Shown: positions 1,220-43,140 of the stretch, one piece after another
Position numbering within the stretch: the first letter of the stretch is position 1
How the letters are laid out: every line of letters starts with the position of its first letter
Source of the DNA: Halomonas sp. 328
GTDB lineage: Bacteria; Pseudomonadota; Gammaproteobacteria; Pseudomonadales; Halomonadaceae
Assembly: GCF_015645095.1 (NCBI RefSeq)
Contig: NZ_JADOTW010000003.1
Location: 1-64,000 of the forward strand
DNA length: 64,000 bases
Reading direction: 5' to 3'
Notes under the pieces: generated by a model
Databases searched by the model: none
Told to the model about the DNA's origin: nothing
The model's input: only the letters and a program-made list of their open reading frames with translations
Program-made: the position numbers and the translations under genes

Positions 1220-2035
1220 TCACTCGGGTTTGTGCAGGGTATAGAGCAGGTAACGCCCCAGGCGCCAGTGGGGCTCGACGTCGCAGTAGCGGCGCTCCAG
1301 CGCCAGCAGCTGCTTCAGCTGCGCCTCGTCGGGATGGCGCTCGCGCAGGTAGTCGTGGAAGACGCGGATCCCCGCCACGGCGGTGATCTCGAGCCCCCGG
1401 GCCTCGGCCCAGGTGGCGATCTGATCATGGGTCAGCGGCGAGATGGGGGTCAGGCGCCGGCGCCGGCCGGTGCCCTCCAGGCGGTCCGCCAGGGCCTTCT
1501 CCAGGTTGCCCTTGACCACATTGGAGAAGCGCAGGGCGTCCCGGTTGAAGACCATCAGCGACAACTGGCCGCCGGGGGCCAGCAGGCCCGCCAGGGTGGC
1601 CAGGGCCGCCTCGGGGTCGGCCAGCCACTCGAACACCGCATGGCAGACGATCAGCGGCCAGGGCCCCGGAGCCGCCTCGGGCAGGCGCTGCAGGGGCTCA
1701 CGCAAGAAACGTACCGACTGCCCCGCCAGGGCCTGCCGGGCCCGGGCCAGCATCTCCTCGGCGGGCTCGGCCAGGGTCACGTCGTGGCCACGCGCGGCGA
1801 ACCAGGCGGCCATCTGCCCCAGGCCACCGCCCACGTCGAGCAGCGGCTGGCCGCCGAGCTCGAGCTGGCGGGGCAGGCAGTGATCGAGCAGCGCCAGGCG
1901 CAGGGCGCCGCGGGGCGAGCCATAGAGGCCGGCGGAGAACTTCTCGGCCAGGCCCTCGAAGTGGCGATCGCCATCGGCGGAGAGGGGCGCGTCGCTGGGC
2001 AAGGTGGCAGTTCCTGAGGTCAAGGGGGTGCCCAT
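1220..2035 (-). CDS. cmoM: tRNA 5-carboxymethoxyuridine methyltransferase CmoM
   Basis: CmoM (formerly SmtA) methylates cmo5U at the wobble position of some tRNAs to give mcmo5U. The protein has a class I SAM fold with LLDVGGGLGQMAAWFAARGH, and family blocks matching E. coli CmoM: FEGLAEKFSAGLYG near the start, CHAVFEWLADP, and IRVFHDYLRERHP near the end. The frame stays open upstream to 2131, but those extra codons are read out of the MITE-like repeat at 2067-2209. I therefore start at the ATG at 2035, giving about 271 aa, close to E. coli (261). The ribosome-binding site is weak. The insertion may have displaced the original promoter or leader. Confidence 0.88.
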   Translation of the reverse strand: MGTPLTSGTATLPSDAPLSADGDRHFEGLAEKFSAGLYGSPRGALRLALLDHCLPRQLELGGQPLLDVGGGLGQMAAWFAARGHDVTLAEPAEEMLARARQALAGQSVRFLREPLQRLPEAAPGPWPLIVCHAVFEWLADPEAALATLAGLLAPGGQLSLMVFNRDALRFSNVVKGNLEKALADRLEGTGRRRRLTPISPLTHDQIATWAEARGLEITAVAGIRVFHDYLRERHPDEAQLKQLLALERRYCDVEPHWRLGRYLLYTLHKPE

Positions 2036-2066
2036 TCTATCCGCTGTGCGGCTCGCGGCGAACCTT

Positions 2067-2209
2067 AGGCTCTGTACGAAAACTGCCTGCGCTCGCCCAT
2101 ACGGCGTTAAAAATCGGCTCAAAGTACTCATTTACACCGCGTAAACTCCGTCTTTTCGCCGATTTTTGCCTTGTCTGGCCATCGCTCGCCGACTTTTCGT
2201 ACAAAACCT
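2067..2209. mobile_element. MITE-like palindromic element, 143 bp
   Basis: The two ends are inverted repeats: one reads aggctctgtacgaaaa at the left and the other aggttttgtacgaaaa read inward from the right. Inside, aaaaatcggc and gccgattttt form a second inverted pair, and tttac/gtaaa a third, so the whole unit can fold into one long hairpin. It has no coding capacity. These traits fit a non-autonomous element moved by a transposase encoded elsewhere. Its right end supplies the TAG stop of the amidase (2208-2210), and its left end sits about 30 bp upstream of the cmoM start. Confidence 0.75.
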
Positions 2210-3761
2210 AGGAACGACCGGCGCCTCCGGCCTCCTGGTCGCTCTCGGGGCGCGGCTCAGGCCGCACCTCCAGCGGCAGGCGCGCGGCCCAACCCACCTC
2301 CCGCTCCAGTTGGGCGGCGAACTGCAGCAGCCGCCGTTCGCCGCCCATGGGGCCCAGGCACTGCACCCCCACCGGCAAGCCCTGCGGGGTGATATGCAGG
2401 GACAGCGACATGGCCGGCTGGCCGGTCAGGTTGGCTAGCTGGGTAAAGGGCGAATAGCGCAGCGACTCCCGGGCCAGGGACTCGAGCCCACCCGCCCTGA
2501 GCGCCAGGGCAGCGGCGCCGGGCAGCGCCAGCAGGCCCATCAGCGCCTCCCGCCAGCGGCTCGGATAGAGACTGCCACGCAATGGCGGTGGCCCGCTGAG
2601 CACCGGCATCAAGAGCAGGTCGAAGCGGCAATGGAAGGCGCCCATGGCGCGCCCCAGGGTGTTCCAGTGGCGCTTGGCCAGCTCGTAATCCCGGGCCTTG
2701 AGGTGACGGCCGAGACGGGCGATGGCACGGGTGGCCGGCTCGATGGCCAGCCGCGACTCACGCATGCCGGTCTGCTCGGCGATCCACGCCAGGTCGGCAC
2801 TCAGGTGTCCCAGGTAGAGGGTCAGGTAACTATGGGCCAGGGCCGCGCCGTCCACCGGCGGATCGCACCACTCCACCCGATGGCCCAGGGCCTCGCAGCG
2901 CCGGGCCGCGGCCTCCACTGCCTCGCGCACCTGGGGATGCAGCTCGCCACCGAAGGGAGCACTGAACGGCTCGCCCAGGGAGACGGCGATGGTCAACGGT
3001 TCCGGGGCACGCTCCAGGGCGGCCAGGAAGCCGCTCTCGTGGCGCACCGGGTAGGGTCCCCCTTCGTCCATGCCATTGATGGCGTCGAGCAGGGCGGCAC
3101 TGTCGCGCACGCTGCGGGTCAGGGCATGCTCGACCACGGCCCCCTGCCACACCTCGCTATGGGCGGGGCCTAGCGGCACCCGGCCCCGGGAGGGCTTGAG
3201 GCCGAAGAGGCCGCACTGGCTGGCGGGAATGCGAATCGAGCCGCCGCCATCGCCGGCTCCGGCCAGGGGCACCAGGCCCGCCGCCACCGCCGCCGCGGCG
3301 CCACCGCTGGAGCCCCCCGGCGAGTAGTCGCGCCCCCAGGGGTTGACCGGATGGGGAAAGGCCCTGGGCTCGGTGATCCCCATCAGCCCCAGCTCCGGGC
3401 AACCGCTCTGGCCGAGGATCACCAGGCCGGCCTGGCGGAAGCGCTTGACCAGGGTCGCGTCTGCCTCGGGTCGCCAGTCGGCCAGGGCGGCGCTGCCGAA
3501 GCTCAGCGGCTCATCGGCCAGGCCCATCAGCAGGTCCTTGGTCAGGAAGGGCACGCCGGCGAAGGGCGAGCGGGGTTCCACCTCGTCGGCCTCGTGACGG
3601 GCTCGCTCGTAGCGCCGCCGCACCACCGCCCCCAACTGGGGGTTATCGAGGTCGATGGCGGTGCAGGCTGCCTCGAGGACCTCCTCGCGACTGACCTCGC
3701 CGCTGCGTATCAGGGCCGCCAGCCCCAGGCCGTCATAACGGCGGTACTCATGATCCTTCAT
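2208..3761 (-). CDS. Amidase, amidase-signature family
   Basis: A hydrolase of the amidase-signature family, which cleaves C-N bonds using a Ser-cisSer-Lys triad. Visible elements are Lys75 in PFLTKDLLM, the cis-Ser at about 151 in [17 protein letters not shown] and the nucleophile Ser175 in [14 protein letters not shown]; the 24-residue gap between the serines is typical of the family. Length is about 517 aa. The exact substrate cannot be read from sequence; it is not the GatA type by context, since gatB and gatC are absent. The start is the ATG at 3761, with an AGGAAAGG ribosome-binding site just upstream; a TTG at 3785 is less likely. The last codons run into the MITE-like element, which supplies the stop, so the original C-terminus may have been altered. 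Confidence 0.85.
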
Positions 3762-3924
3762 TGCCCTTTCCTTGCCTCTGCCCAAGCCATCAGCATGATC
3801 AAATGGGCCCGACGATCAAGTCGTTATCAAAAAAAACACCGAACAACATTAAAGCTACAATGACATACCGCCGATAACACCCTATCCCCGACTCAGGCCA
3901 TTGCATTACCCAGGGAGAGACCTC

Positions 3925-6015
3925 TTGAGCCCATTCCACGGCGACCTCGGCACGCTGCTCGACTTCCCCAGCCTGGCGATCTGCATCAGCGAGGGCGATT
4001 CCCTCGGCGGCCGGCTGGCCTACGTCAATCACGCCTTCGAGCGCTTGACCGGCTATGCCCGGGAGGAGCTGCTGGGTGGCCGTTGCCCGCTGCTGGATAC
4101 CGGTGTCCTCGAGGAGGCGCATCGCCAGGCCCTGACCAAGGCCCTGCGCGACGGCCGCCCCTTTACCCTGACCCTGGCCTGCCAGCGTCGCGACGGCGAC
4201 CTCTTCCATAACGAGCTGAGCCTGTCGCGCTTCTGCCTGGGCGATGGGCGTCGCTACCTGATCGGCATCCATCGCGATGTCAGCCAGCGCGAGGCGCACC
4301 AGAACCGCCTGGAGCTGGCCCAGGCGGTGTTCAACAACACCCATGACGGCATCCTGGTCACCGATGCCGAGAAACGCATCATCGACACCAACCCGGCCTT
4401 CACCGAATTGACCGGCTATACCCGGGAAGAAGCCCTGGGCAAGAAGCCCAACCTGCTCTCCTCCGGCAAGCACGACTCCGGCTTCTACGAGAGCATGTTC
4501 GCCGCGGTGGAGAGCCGCGGCTACTGGAGCGGCGACATCTGGAACACCCGCAAGGATGGCAGCCAGCTGATCGAGAACACCACCATCTCGGCGATTCGCG
4601 ACGAGAGCGGGAAGATCGCCAACTATATCGGGGTGTTCCGCGACATTACCCAGCGCCGCCTCAACCAGGCGCGCCTCGAGCGCATGGCCAGCTACGACCC
4701 CCTCACCGGGCTCTTCAACCGGGAGCACTTCAATACCCTGCTGGAGAGCCAGCTGGCCAGCCTGGAGTATACCCAGAGCGGCCTGGCGGTGCTGTTCCTC
4801 GACCTGGATGACTTCAAGCCGATCAACGACAGCTTCGGCCACGCCTGCGGCGACGAGCTTCTGATCGAGATCAGCCGCCGCCTCAAGCACCTGATGCGCG
4901 CCAACGACCTCACCGCCCGCTTCGGTGGCGACGAGTTCGTCATCGCCCTGACCGGCCTGGGTACCGCCGACAAGGCCGCCAAGGTCGCCGAGAAGGTGAT
5001 GGACGAGATCATTCGCCCCTATCAGCTCGACAATGGCGAACTGGTCAAGGTCTCGGTCTCCATCGGCATCGCCTTTACCTCGAGCCACGAGATCAGCGCC
5101 GCCCAGTTGCTGGACGCCGCCGACGCCGCCATGTACGAGGCCAAGCAGCAGGGCAAGAACCGCCTCGCCTTCGCCCGCGATCTGGCATGGCAAGCCGAGA
5201 GCCAGGACGCCTACACCCTGGTCAAGGCGGCCTTCGAAGGCGGACAGATCGAGCTCTTCTTCCAGCCGATCCTGTCGCTGCATCGCCAGTGCATCATCGG
5301 CTTCGAGGCCCTGGCCCGTTGGCGCCACCCGAAGAAGGGCGTGCTCGGCCCCCAGCATTTCATGGACGTGATCACCCAGTCGTCGCTGAGCCTGCCCTAT
5401 GGTCGCTGGCTGATCGACGAGGCAGCCCGGGTCGCCAAGCGCTTCCATGCCGCGGGCCATGCCATTTCCATCGGCGTCAACCTCTCCCAGGACCAGATCG
5501 AGACCGGCGCCATCGTCGAATCCCTGGCCTCGGCGCGTCACCGCCACGGCCTGACCCACCCCTTCCTGGTCGCCGAGGTGCTGGAGTCGACCCACTTCCA
5601 TGACCTGGACCTGGCCTGCGGCCTGCTGCAGGAAGCCCGCAGCCTGGGGGCCCAGATCGCCCTGGACGACTTCGGCTCGGGCATCTCCTCCATCACCTAT
5701 GTGAGTCAGCTACCGCTCAACACCCTCAAGATCGATCGTACCGTGACCCGCCATGCGGAGACCCGGGAGGACCGCCGCCAGTTCGTCAGTGGCATTATCC
5801 GCATGGGACACGCCATGGGGCTCCAGGTACTGGCCGAAGGCATCGAAAGCGAGGAGCAACTGAACACACTTCGCCTGCTGGGCTGCGACCTGGCCCAGGG
5901 CTTTCATCTCGGCCGCCCCATGGCGGAGAACGAGATCGTCGCGCGCTACCTGGCCCCGGAGACACCGCCGCGCTTCGCCCTCGAGGCGGAAAGTGGCACC
6001 CCCTCAAGGGTTTAA
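3925..6015 (+). CDS. LOV-like/PAS-GGDEF-EAL cyclic-di-GMP protein
   Basis: A cytoplasmic c-di-GMP enzyme of about 696 aa with no membrane segment. Order: a first PAS domain resembling LOV (about 15-125), a second PAS (about 130-245), GGDEF (motif RFGGDEF at about 332-338, preceded by an RxxD inhibitory site, RAND) and EAL (FEALARW at about 461-467, EVLEST, DDFGSG, KIDRT, AEGIES). Both catalytic motifs look intact, so it could make or break c-di-GMP. The start is decided by the ribosome-binding site: agggagag at 3912-3919 sits 5 nt before a TTG at 3925; the TTG at 3901 has none. The first PAS keeps a Cys at about position 54 where LOV photosensors carry the flavin-adduct Cys. A tRNA gene follows directly. 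Confidence 0.9.
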   Translation: MSPFHGDLGTLLDFPSLAICISEGDSLGGRLAYVNHAFERLTGYAREELLGGRCPLLDTGVLEEAHRQALTKALRDGRPFTLTLACQRRDGDLFHNELSLSRFCLGDGRRYLIGIHRDVSQREAHQNRLELAQAVFNNTHDGILVTDAEKRIIDTNPAFTELTGYTREEALGKKPNLLSSGKHDSGFYESMFAAVESRGYWSGDIWNTRKDGSQLIENTTISAIRDESGKIANYIGVFRDITQRRLNQARLERMASYDPLTGLFNREHFNTLLESQLASLEYTQSGLAVLFLDLDDFKPINDSFGHACGDELLIEISRRLKHLMRANDLTARFGGDEFVIALTGLGTADKAAKVAEKVMDEIIRPYQLDNGELVKVSVSIGIAFTSSHEISAAQLLDAADAAMYEAKQQGKNRLAFARDLAWQAESQDAYTLVKAAFEGGQIELFFQPILSLHRQCIIGFEALARWRHPKKGVLGPQHFMDVITQSSLSLPYGRWLIDEAARVAKRFHAAGHAISIGVNLSQDQIETGAIVESLASARHRHGLTHPFLVAEVLESTHFHDLDLACGLLQEARSLGAQIALDDFGSGISSITYVSQLPLNTLKIDRTVTRHAETREDRRQFVSGIIRMGHAMGLQVLAEGIESEEQLNTLRLLGCDLAQGFHLGRPMAENEIVARYLAPETPPRFALEAESGTPSRV

Positions 6016-36870: not shown

Positions 36871-37148
36871 GGTGTCCTCTAGATAGTGCTGCCGGCCGTA
36901 CCGGGAGGCGGTCGGCCGGTCGAATCGGTGTCCAGTCCCCCGATTTTGTCATGAGCCCGGGCATCAAGCCAGCGCCCCGCCTTTTCGAGCTATCCCCCGT
37001 TGGCAGCCCGGGGCTACCCTGGGGCAGGCCCCGGTGGCCGGACCCTCGCAAAGACGCTGTGAATCCATCCATGGACGCTCGACTTTTTCGTCCCTGAAAA
37101 AGACGCTTTGCTCCGACCTGTCCCCAGCGCCCCTTAGCCACTCAAGCG

Positions 37149-37805
37149 TTATTCGCTCCAGGGCGTCAGGCGACCGTCCACCAGGGCCAGGCGGCGCTGG
37201 GCCAGGGCCTCGATATCCTCCCGGTCGTGGCTGACCAGCAGCACCGCCACCCCCGCCTGCTGCTGGCGCTTGACCAGGGCCCAGAGGCCCTGGCGATTGG
37301 CATGATCGAGGCCGGTAAAGGGCTCGTCCAGCAGCAGGATAGGCGCCTGGCGCAGCAGCGCCCGGGTCAGGGCCACCCGCTGGCGCTGGCCGCCGGAGAG
37401 CTCGCCGGGCAGGCGCTCCTCGAGGCCCGCCAGGCCGACCTCGGCCAGGCCATCGCGGATGCGCCGGCGCTGGGCGGCGTCGAGTTTGAGATTGGCCGCC
37501 AGCCCCAGGCCGATATTGGCCCATACCGGCAGGTGATCGAAGAGGTTGTGCTCCTGGAAGACCGTGGTGATGCCCCGCTCCCAGGGCGGCAGCCTGAGCA
37601 GGTCACGCTCGCCCCAGCGCAGGCCGCCGCTGGCGGGCTCCAGGAAGCCCGCCAGCAGGTTGAGCAGGGTGCTCTTGCCGGCCCCGGAGGGCCCCTCCAG
37701 GGCCAGGCATTCGCCGGGGGCCAGGCGAAAGCGGAAGCAGAAGTCCGGCGTTTCCCCGGGTTCACAGCGGTCGTAGTGAAAGATCAGATCATCGCAATGG
37801 AGCAT
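37149..37805 (-). CDS. thiQ: Thiamine ABC transporter ATPase ThiQ
   Basis: Energises uptake of thiamine and its phosphates. About 218 aa, short for an ABC ATPase but normal for ThiQ. Walker A LEGPSGAGKSTLLNLLAG, Q-loop VFQEHNLFDH, signature LSGGQRQRVALTRAL, Walker B ILLLDEPFTGLDHAN and switch His in LLVSHDRED are intact. Nine bases after thiP. Last gene of thiBPQ. Confidence 0.94.
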   Translation of the reverse strand: MLHCDDLIFHYDRCEPGETPDFCFRFRLAPGECLALEGPSGAGKSTLLNLLAGFLEPASGGLRWGERDLLRLPPWERGITTVFQEHNLFDHLPVWANIGLGLAANLKLDAAQRRRIRDGLAEVGLAGLEERLPGELSGGQRQRVALTRALLRQAPILLLDEPFTGLDHANRQGLWALVKRQQQAGVAVLLVSHDREDIEALAQRRLALVDGRLTPWSE

Positions 37806-40605: not shown

Positions 40606-43044
40606 TCAGCCGAACACCACCCTGGCCACGTCCCGGTAGCGCTTGGCGAAGTGTACCGTCATCCCCGCCTTGAGGTAGTCGGGCAGCTCGTCATAGTCGC
40701 GGCGGTTGGGCTCCGGCAGGATCACCTCATGGATCTCGCTGCGCCGGGCGGCGATGATCTTCTCGCGGATGCCGCCCACCGGCAACACCTGGCCGGTCAG
40801 GGTCAACTCCCCGGTCATCGCCAGGGGTCGGTCGATGGCCTGGTGACGGGCCAGCGAGAGCAGCGCCGTGGTCATGGTCACCCCCGCCGAGGGGCCATCC
40901 TTGGGGGTCGCCCCCTCCGGCACATGCAGGTGGATAAAGGCATCGTTGAAGAAGTCCGGGTCGGCACCATACTCCCCCAGGTGCCCCTGCACATAGCTAT
41001 AGGCGATATTCGCCGACTCCTGCATCACCTCCCCGAGCTTGCCGGTGAGCTTGAAACCCCGGGCCAGGGCGTGCACCTTGCCCGCCTCGATGGGCAGGGT
41101 GGCACCGCCCATGGCGGTCCAGGCCAGCCCCGTGACCACCCCTTCGCCCTTGAGCACCTTCTCGCGGCGGAACAGCGGCGCCCCGAGGAATTCCTCCAGG
41201 TTGTTCACCGAGACCTTGACGCTCTGCTGGCCGTTTTCCAGCAGCTTGACCGCCGCCTTGCGCACGATGCGGTGCAGCTGCTTCTCCAGCTGGCGCACCC
41301 CCGCTTCCCGGGCATAGCCCTCGATCACCTGCTTGAGGGCCGCATCGGTGAGGTTGATGCGCTTCCTGGGGATCTTGTCGCGCTTGAGCAGCTTGGGCCA
41401 GAGGTGGTGCTTGGCGATGGCCAGCTTCTCCTCGGCGATATAGCCGGAGAGGCGGATCTGCTCCATGCGATCGAGCAAGGGCCCGGGGATCGAGTCCAGG
41501 GTGTTGGCGGTACACACGAAGAGTACCTTGGAGAGGTCCAGGCGCACGTCCAGGTAGTGATCGAGGAAGTCGACGTTCTGCTCCGGATCGAGCACCTCGA
41601 GCAAGGCCGAAGCAGGGTCGCCCTGGAAGGACTGGCCCAGCTTGTCGATCTCGTCGAGCATGATCACCGGGTTCTGGACCTCCACCTCCTTGAGGGCCTG
41701 CACCAGCTTGCCGGGCATGGCGCCGATATAGGTGCGCCGGTGGCCCTTGATCTCCGCCTCGTCGCGCATGCCGCCCACCGAGAAGCGGTAGAACTCGCGG
41801 CCCAGGGCCTCGGCGATGGAGCGGCCGATGGAGGTCTTGCCCACCCCGGGCGGGCCGACGAGCAGCAGGATGGAGCCGCCCACGTCGCCCTTGAAGGTGC
41901 CTTCGGCGAGGAACTCGATGATCCGCTCCTTGACGTCCTTGAGGCCGTCGTGGTCGCGATCCAACACCTCCCGGGCATGGGCCAGGTCCAGGTTGTCGTC
42001 GCTGGTGACGCCCCAGGGCAGGCTGGTCAGCCAATCCAGGTAGTTGCGGGTGGTACCGTACTCCGGCGAGCCGGTCTCCAGCACCGAGAGCTTGTCGAGC
42101 TCCTCCTCGATGCGGGTCAACACCTTGGGGGGCACCGTCAGTTCCTCCAGGCGGTCGCGGAAGGTCTCCACGTCGTTCTCGCGATCGTCCTTGGAGATAC
42201 CCAGCTCGCGCTGGATCACCTTGAGCTGCTCGCGCAGGAAGAACTCCCGCTGGCGCTCCTGCATCTTGGCGTTGACCTGCTCGCTGATCTCGCTCTGCAG
42301 CTGGGCCACCTCGATCTCCTTGTGCAGCAGCGGCAGCACCTTCTGCATGCGTGGCAGCACCGGCAGGGTCTCGAGGATCGCCTGCAGCTCGCGGCCCTTG
42401 GCGGAGGTGATGGCGGCGGCGAAGTCGGCCAGGGGGCCCGGCTCATGGGGGCTGAAGCGGTTGAGGTAGTGCTTGAGCTCCTCGCCATAGAGGGGGTTGA
42501 TCGGCAGCAGCTCCTTGATGCCGTTGATCACCGCCATGGCGTAGGCCCGGGCCTCGTCGGCCTCGGCGTCCACCGGCTCCTTGGGGTAGCTCACCTCCAC
42601 CAGGTAGGGGGGCTTGCGGGAGAGCCAGCGCTGGATGCGAAAGCGCTTCAGGCCCTGGGCGATGAACTGGATCTGGTTATCACCCTGCTCCACCTTGTGC
42701 ATGCGCACCGTGGTGCCGATCTCGGGAAAATGCTCGGGGGTCAGCTCCTCGAGGTCGGTCTCGTCGACGAAGGCCAGGCCCACGGCGTGGTGGGGGGTCT
42801 TGCCGACCCGCTCGATGGTCTCCTCCCAGCGCGGACGATGGATCACCAGCGGCTGTACCTGGGCGGGGAAGAAGGGTCGATTATGGATCGGCAGCAGTTA
42901 GATACGCTCGGGCAGGCTATCGCCGCTGGGCACCATGGCGTGGGAGGGCTCCTCCCCCGCCTCATCGCCCGCTTCGGCGTCGATGTCGGCGCCCTCGACG
43001 CCATCGACAATCACGTTCTGCCGCTCATCATCATGCTCTCTCAT
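40606..43044 (-). pseudogene. ATP-dependent Lon-type protease (AsrA family) interrupted by an in-frame TAA
   Basis: Read through the stop, the gene encodes about 812 residues: N-terminal substrate-binding domain, AAA+ domain (Walker A GPPGVGKTSIGRSIAEALG, Walker B IMLDEIDKLGQ) and protease domain (catalytic Ser in KDGPSAGVTM, Lys in [12 protein letters not shown]). It resembles Pseudomonas AsrA more than E. coli Lon. The natural start is ATG 43044 (aggatggatc upstream). Codon 49, at 42898-42900, is TAA where the family has Tyr (LPERxY then IPIHNRPFFPAQV); the 48-residue N-terminus ends SLPERI and the frame continues at once with LLPIHNRPFFPAQV. Downstream 764 codons are intact. Reinitiation at an internal GTG (42846) would lose the first motif. 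It may be a fresh pseudogene, a sequencing error or a readthrough site. Confidence 0.85.
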
Positions 43045-43140
43045 GATCCATCCTGTCTCCGGGGTCGATGACCAGTATGGCAACAGGAATGCGGGCGGCT
43101 AACACAAACTTCAAGGCGACCCCCAGCCGACACAACGACG

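Follow-up and report, generated by a model that had tools for sequence, protein, structure and literature searches.

A premature in-frame TAA in the otherwise intact AsrA-type Lon protease gene of Halomonas sp. 328

The heat-shock protease AsrA (PA0779) of Pseudomonas aeruginosa, a member of the Lon family, is described as RpoH-regulated in PMC9866376, which together with PMC3884212 supplies the background on AsrA used here. Among the titles listed on Halomonas, Lon protease or AsrA, none has a Halomonas AsrA as its subject. The Halomonas gene analyzed below resembles PA0779 in belonging to the same family by sequence and in carrying a candidate RpoH-like promoter, but differs from it in having a TAA codon where a tyrosine is conserved. 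Canonical Lon (endopeptidase La) has the same domains, yet it shares only about 40% identity with this protein and is encoded by a separate gene. The third point of comparison is the young, single-nonsense bacterial pseudogene, which the locus matches in its one premature stop, its otherwise intact frame and its intact relatives, and from which we see no specific difference.

The window, a stretch of 64,000 nucleotides, carries the gene on its minus strand at positions 40606 to 43044, with an ATG at 43044 and a terminal stop at 40606-40608. This Lon-like frame is broken once only, by a TAA at 42900-42898 (TTA on the plus strand at 42898-42900), around which it reads SLPERI, the stop and then LLPIHNRPFFPAQV; with this stop at codon 49, asrA does not form a continuous translatable frame, and no second lesion was found in its coding frame, the single TAA being the only stop inside the match. 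The proposal of an earlier, sequence-only reading, a nonsense codon within an otherwise intact AsrA-type gene, is thus confirmed, with the feature lying on the minus strand. That reading had also counted 764 open codons downstream of the stop: the downstream frame (40606-42897) is indeed open, but it comprises 763 sense codons, and the figure of 764 includes the terminal stop. The 48 codons before the stop (42901-43044) encode a variable tail that ends in LPERI and has no Pfam match, while the post-stop frame encodes the LON substrate-binding, AAA+, lid and S16 protease domains. Accordingly, the Pfam models LON_substr_bdg, AAA, Lon_lid and Lon_C score above their cut-offs, either in the post-stop frame or in the frame with an X at the stop, and the post-stop frame reaches 954 bits against the NCBIfam model TIGR00763 (lon; cut-off, 608). 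It was further claimed that the AAA+ and Ser-Lys dyad residues are intact, and the Walker A (GPPGVGKT) and Walker B (VIMLDEID) motifs, the serine motif (DGPSAG) and the lysine motif are all found after the stop.

The protein belongs with the second Lon of these bacteria rather than with canonical Lon, since it is 65 to 97% identical to the second Lon of Halomonadaceae and Pseudomonas and 40 to 41% identical to canonical Lon, whether from the same genome or from that of its sister species. Identities to the Pseudomonas, Halopseudomonas, Stutzerimonas and Marinobacter copies fall between 65 and 70% among the 80 best loci; these 80, which are the loci named, come from a total of at least 545. The name AsrA as used here follows the label given by the sequence-only reading, together with homology to unannotated Pseudomonas loci. 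A search of the window genome found no second intact asrA copy; the other strong match was canonical lon, a separate open frame of 805 codons on contig C51.

Upstream of asrA, at 43087-43115 on the minus strand, lies a candidate RpoH (sigma-32)-like promoter, CTTGAA-N15-CCGCATTC, which departs at two positions from the consensus; 7 of 500 mononucleotide shuffles of the window's stretch contained a site as good. The sister has the form CTTGAA-N15-CCGCAT, as do 44 of the 60 loci displayed out of 103 scored, and across those 103 the best site has 0, 1, 2 or 3 mismatches in 5, 29, 59 and 10 loci, respectively. A heat-shock-like promoter thus appears, on the basis of this motif, to be still present upstream of the stopped gene.

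The column occupied by the premature stop is a sense codon in the orthologues. In the 104 loci with a readable motif, it is TAC in 58, TAT in 45 and TAA in one, the window's own, whereby the 103 tyrosine loci are not all independent because some species were fetched twice. The complete set comprised 117 loci; the 13 lacking the motif and left uncounted are seven partial or paralogous loci (L001-L005, L008 and L009) and six relatives (L066, L073, L091, L096, L101 and L106). Just before and at the column, the copies of the family read LPER[ILV]Y. The sister species (G001, locus L007), the sole other genome of the genus that was compared, has TAC at this position and no stop, the two proteins being 97% identical from query residue 1 to 792, the residue at which its contig apparently ends. 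With tyrosine in the sister and in 102 other loci, the suggestion that the TAA arose from a Tyr codon by a single base change is borne out. These comparisons also dispose of three other interpretations of the stop. It is not a chance boundary between open reading frames, since the sister aligns across it without a gap, gaps occurring only in the variable tail further upstream, and tyrosine is found at every other readable locus. Nor does the gene truly start after the stop, because relatives read the column as Tyr and keep the residues immediately upstream. Programmed recoding was likewise rejected, as the stop is found in 1 of 104 readable loci, the window's own.

To see how the gene fares in the wider family, we surveyed 275 family genomes, including the window genome (G000) and the sister. 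A strong asrA match (E ≤ 1e-200) is present in 263 of them, so that a natural null should be uncommon, and in 261 of these 263 there is no in-frame stop within the match, the exceptions being the window genome and G222. In three of these 261 (G023, G189 and G199) the match starts at query residue 163 to 197 and therefore does not cover codon 49. The sequence-only reading had allowed that relatives might carry the same stop; it was sought across the 275 genomes and is found in none of the relatives whose match covers the site. In G222 (a single contig, 86% complete, 6% contamination) asrA lies in several pieces, one of them with a TAG, and in G266 (74% complete, 6% contamination), whose match falls short of E ≤ 1e-200, it lies in pieces with stops. 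Both are one- or two-contig assemblies of low completeness in which the Lon match is split as well (L198, L199, L211, L212 and L216-L222). The joint splitting of asrA and Lon suggests that these assemblies are rich in indels, and we infer that their asrA disruptions are assembly noise. Partial copies were found in G087 and G088, which are among the 12 genomes without a strong match, and G089 (570 contigs) has no clear copy. An AsrA-type match is absent at E ≤ 1e-10 from eight genomes of two genera (G136, G137, G140 and G141; G157-G160), which are 87 to 100% complete and do contain a Lon-like match of 39 to 41% identity (L200-L205, L207 and L208). Other members of the same two genera keep asrA, a distribution that suggests repeated loss. 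Since these eight genomes have Lon but lack an AsrA-type match, it appears that asrA can be lost. As a separate observation, the asrA match of G085 appears with equal score and identical coordinates (1500-3935, minus strand) on contigs C19 and C36, probably because a contig is duplicated in that assembly.

We then considered how long the gene could have been broken. Between the window genome and the sister, the post-stop frame shows a dN of 0.0105 and a dS of 0.217 (ratio, 0.048), and the 46 pre-stop codons compared give a ratio of 0.25. For neighboring genes the same comparison yields 0.053 for nusB, 0.036 for pgpA, 0 for ribH, 0.205 for thiL and 0.353 for a DUF945-like frame, names that are our own presumptive labels rather than the result of a family search. 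When changes were polarized with 60 family outgroups, the window branch received 6 nonsynonymous and 50 synonymous changes and the sister branch 9 and 48, respectively; a single synonymous change was left unassigned. Had the window branch been neutral throughout, about 153 nonsynonymous changes would be expected on it in place of the 6 observed; assuming equal mutation at all sites, and with site numbers back-calculated from dN and dS between the two genomes, the unselected share of the branch is at most about 8%, or about 2% when the rate of the sister is taken as background. Outgroups from the Pseudomonas side divide the nonsynonymous changes into 4 on the window branch and 8 on that of the sister, with 3 unassigned, and they reverse the polarity of columns 45, 169 and 244 (to the sister branch) and of columns 255 and 652 (to the window branch). 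For canonical lon, used as a control with 11 outgroups, two of them partial, the counts are 11 nonsynonymous and 64 synonymous changes on the window branch and 6 and 65 on that of the sister. Three changes on the window branch affect near-invariant columns of the post-stop frame (45, G to D; 244, D to E; 723, F to H). We rejected them as signs of decay, because D, E and H occupy these columns in Pseudomonas-side copies and because the sister branch carries three changes of the same kind (columns 255, 263 and 478).

The polarized counts rule out a long-dead pseudogene. Since they reveal no decay, and since the promoter-like site persists, the stop either is of very recent origin or is not real, and the absence of downstream decay supports the sequence-only reading in calling the mutation recent or erroneous. 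A single wrong base in the consensus of the draft assembly, with the asrA of the strain intact, would leave exactly such a stop without surrounding decay, and it would sit equally well with the purifying selection on the downstream frame, with the retained promoter-like site and with the fact that the other in-frame stops seen among the 275 family genomes are confined to two frameshifted copies in low-quality assemblies. Sequencing errors may also make functional genes resemble pseudogenes, as stated in a review (PMC11078800). We nevertheless regard such an error as rather unlikely, albeit a serious contender. The TAA sits 43 kb into a contig of at least 177 kb, in unremarkable, non-homopolymer sequence, and the consensus of a good draft rarely contains substitution errors. 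The completeness of the assembly is rated at 100% and its contamination at 0.07%, and no further disrupted gene was recognized in the samples tested: in the window genome, no in-frame stops occur in the aligned stretches of 87 ABC-ATPase, 42 LysR helix-turn-helix and the canonical lon matches, which indicates that the assembly is not riddled with errors. Likewise, the five sister frames beside asrA (DUF945-like, pgpA, thiL, nusB and ribH) match the window without stops. Several other sister frames do meet stops in the window, and these we read as shadow frames lying opposite or offset to better-conserved open ones; the asrA frame of the sister meets two, namely the TAA and one that is located upstream of the ATG and hence outside the gene. 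All of these checks count against a poor assembly, not against a single wrong base.

A stop that is real but tolerated, with UAA readthrough or reinitiation at a downstream GTG supplying enough working protease, is improbable in our view. Although the conserved downstream frame speaks for such rescue, the youth of the stop alone accounts for it. The nearest in-frame start after the stop is a GTG at 42844-42846 (minus strand), codon 18 of the post-stop frame, at which 43 of 61 relatives also have GTG; this is a common valine codon, however, and relatives with an intact gene need no start there. The GTG lies inside the LON domain, and starting from it would remove about 20 positions of the domain profile, so that the match begins at profile position 22 instead of 2 and the conserved PIHNRPFFPAQV segment is missing from the product. 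On our reading of the bases, no convincing ribosome-binding site precedes it. Reinitiation, which the sequence-only reading had envisaged, finds no conserved ATG to use, the first in-frame ATG being at 42702 and shared by 14 of 61 relatives. In favor of readthrough, the base after the stop is C and not the strong U; against it, UAA is the least leaky of the three stops. Both properties are described in PMC5289835, in which the +4C measurement comes from yeast. In the window genome assembly, none of the 59 typed tRNAs among 60 hits has a stop-reading anticodon (TTA, CTA or TCA); the remaining hit, of 31 bits, lies at a contig end and was not called by ARAGORN. None of the typed tRNAs was named as an isoleucine tRNA, and the assembly may therefore not show every tRNA. 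The suggestion of tolerance by readthrough or reinitiation thus gains no positive support, and rescue of AsrA by either route is possible at most. It would be tempting to speculate that a real UAA allows low, perhaps stress-dependent AsrA production through readthrough or the GTG at 42846, the stop acting as a brake on a heat-shock protease, but we consider this highly improbable.

The reading we favor, and hold to be probable, is that the strain has very recently acquired a nonsense mutation in its single asrA-type Lon gene, giving an allele that is null or nearly so. Translation from the ATG at 43044 would terminate at codon 49 and release a 48-residue tail, and because this product lacks any Pfam domain, the allele most likely retains little or no function. 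In this scenario, purifying selection would have acted on asrA almost up to the present, and the stop would have followed. Such selection until nearly now, combined with the retained heat-shock-like promoter, makes it probable that the mutation is confined to the strain or its culture and does not mark a long-standing pseudogene of the lineage. Cells would lean on the intact canonical Lon and on other ATP-dependent proteases, and the loss of asrA is expected to be mild in this strain, an expectation extended here to a halophile; an impairment of protein quality control, as the sequence-only reading proposed, may follow from it. We infer that the base is real, the product null and the effect mild; the observation is real and its explanation ordinary. 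If the base is real, the strain would be a knock-out, arisen naturally, for a heat-shock protease retained by nearly the whole family and, with the open copy of its sister, would form a convenient pair for studying the function of the second Lon in halophiles. Should it be an error instead, the record would have to be corrected. A gene caller is expected to report either a 746-residue protein from the GTG at 42846 or a pseudogene, both of which would be misleading in the event of an error.

Two further features of the window were recorded. An open frame of 806 codons runs antisense to asrA (40651-43071, plus strand) and spans nearly the entire gene; long antisense open frames are common in GC-rich genes. 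In addition, a repeat of about 85 to 140 bases at 36990-37152 has 51 matches in the window genome, its own and half-copies included, and dozens in the sister. Its predicted DNA fold has a z-score of -2.0, with 7 of 200 shuffles folding equally well, and the element resembles a dispersed extragenic repeat.
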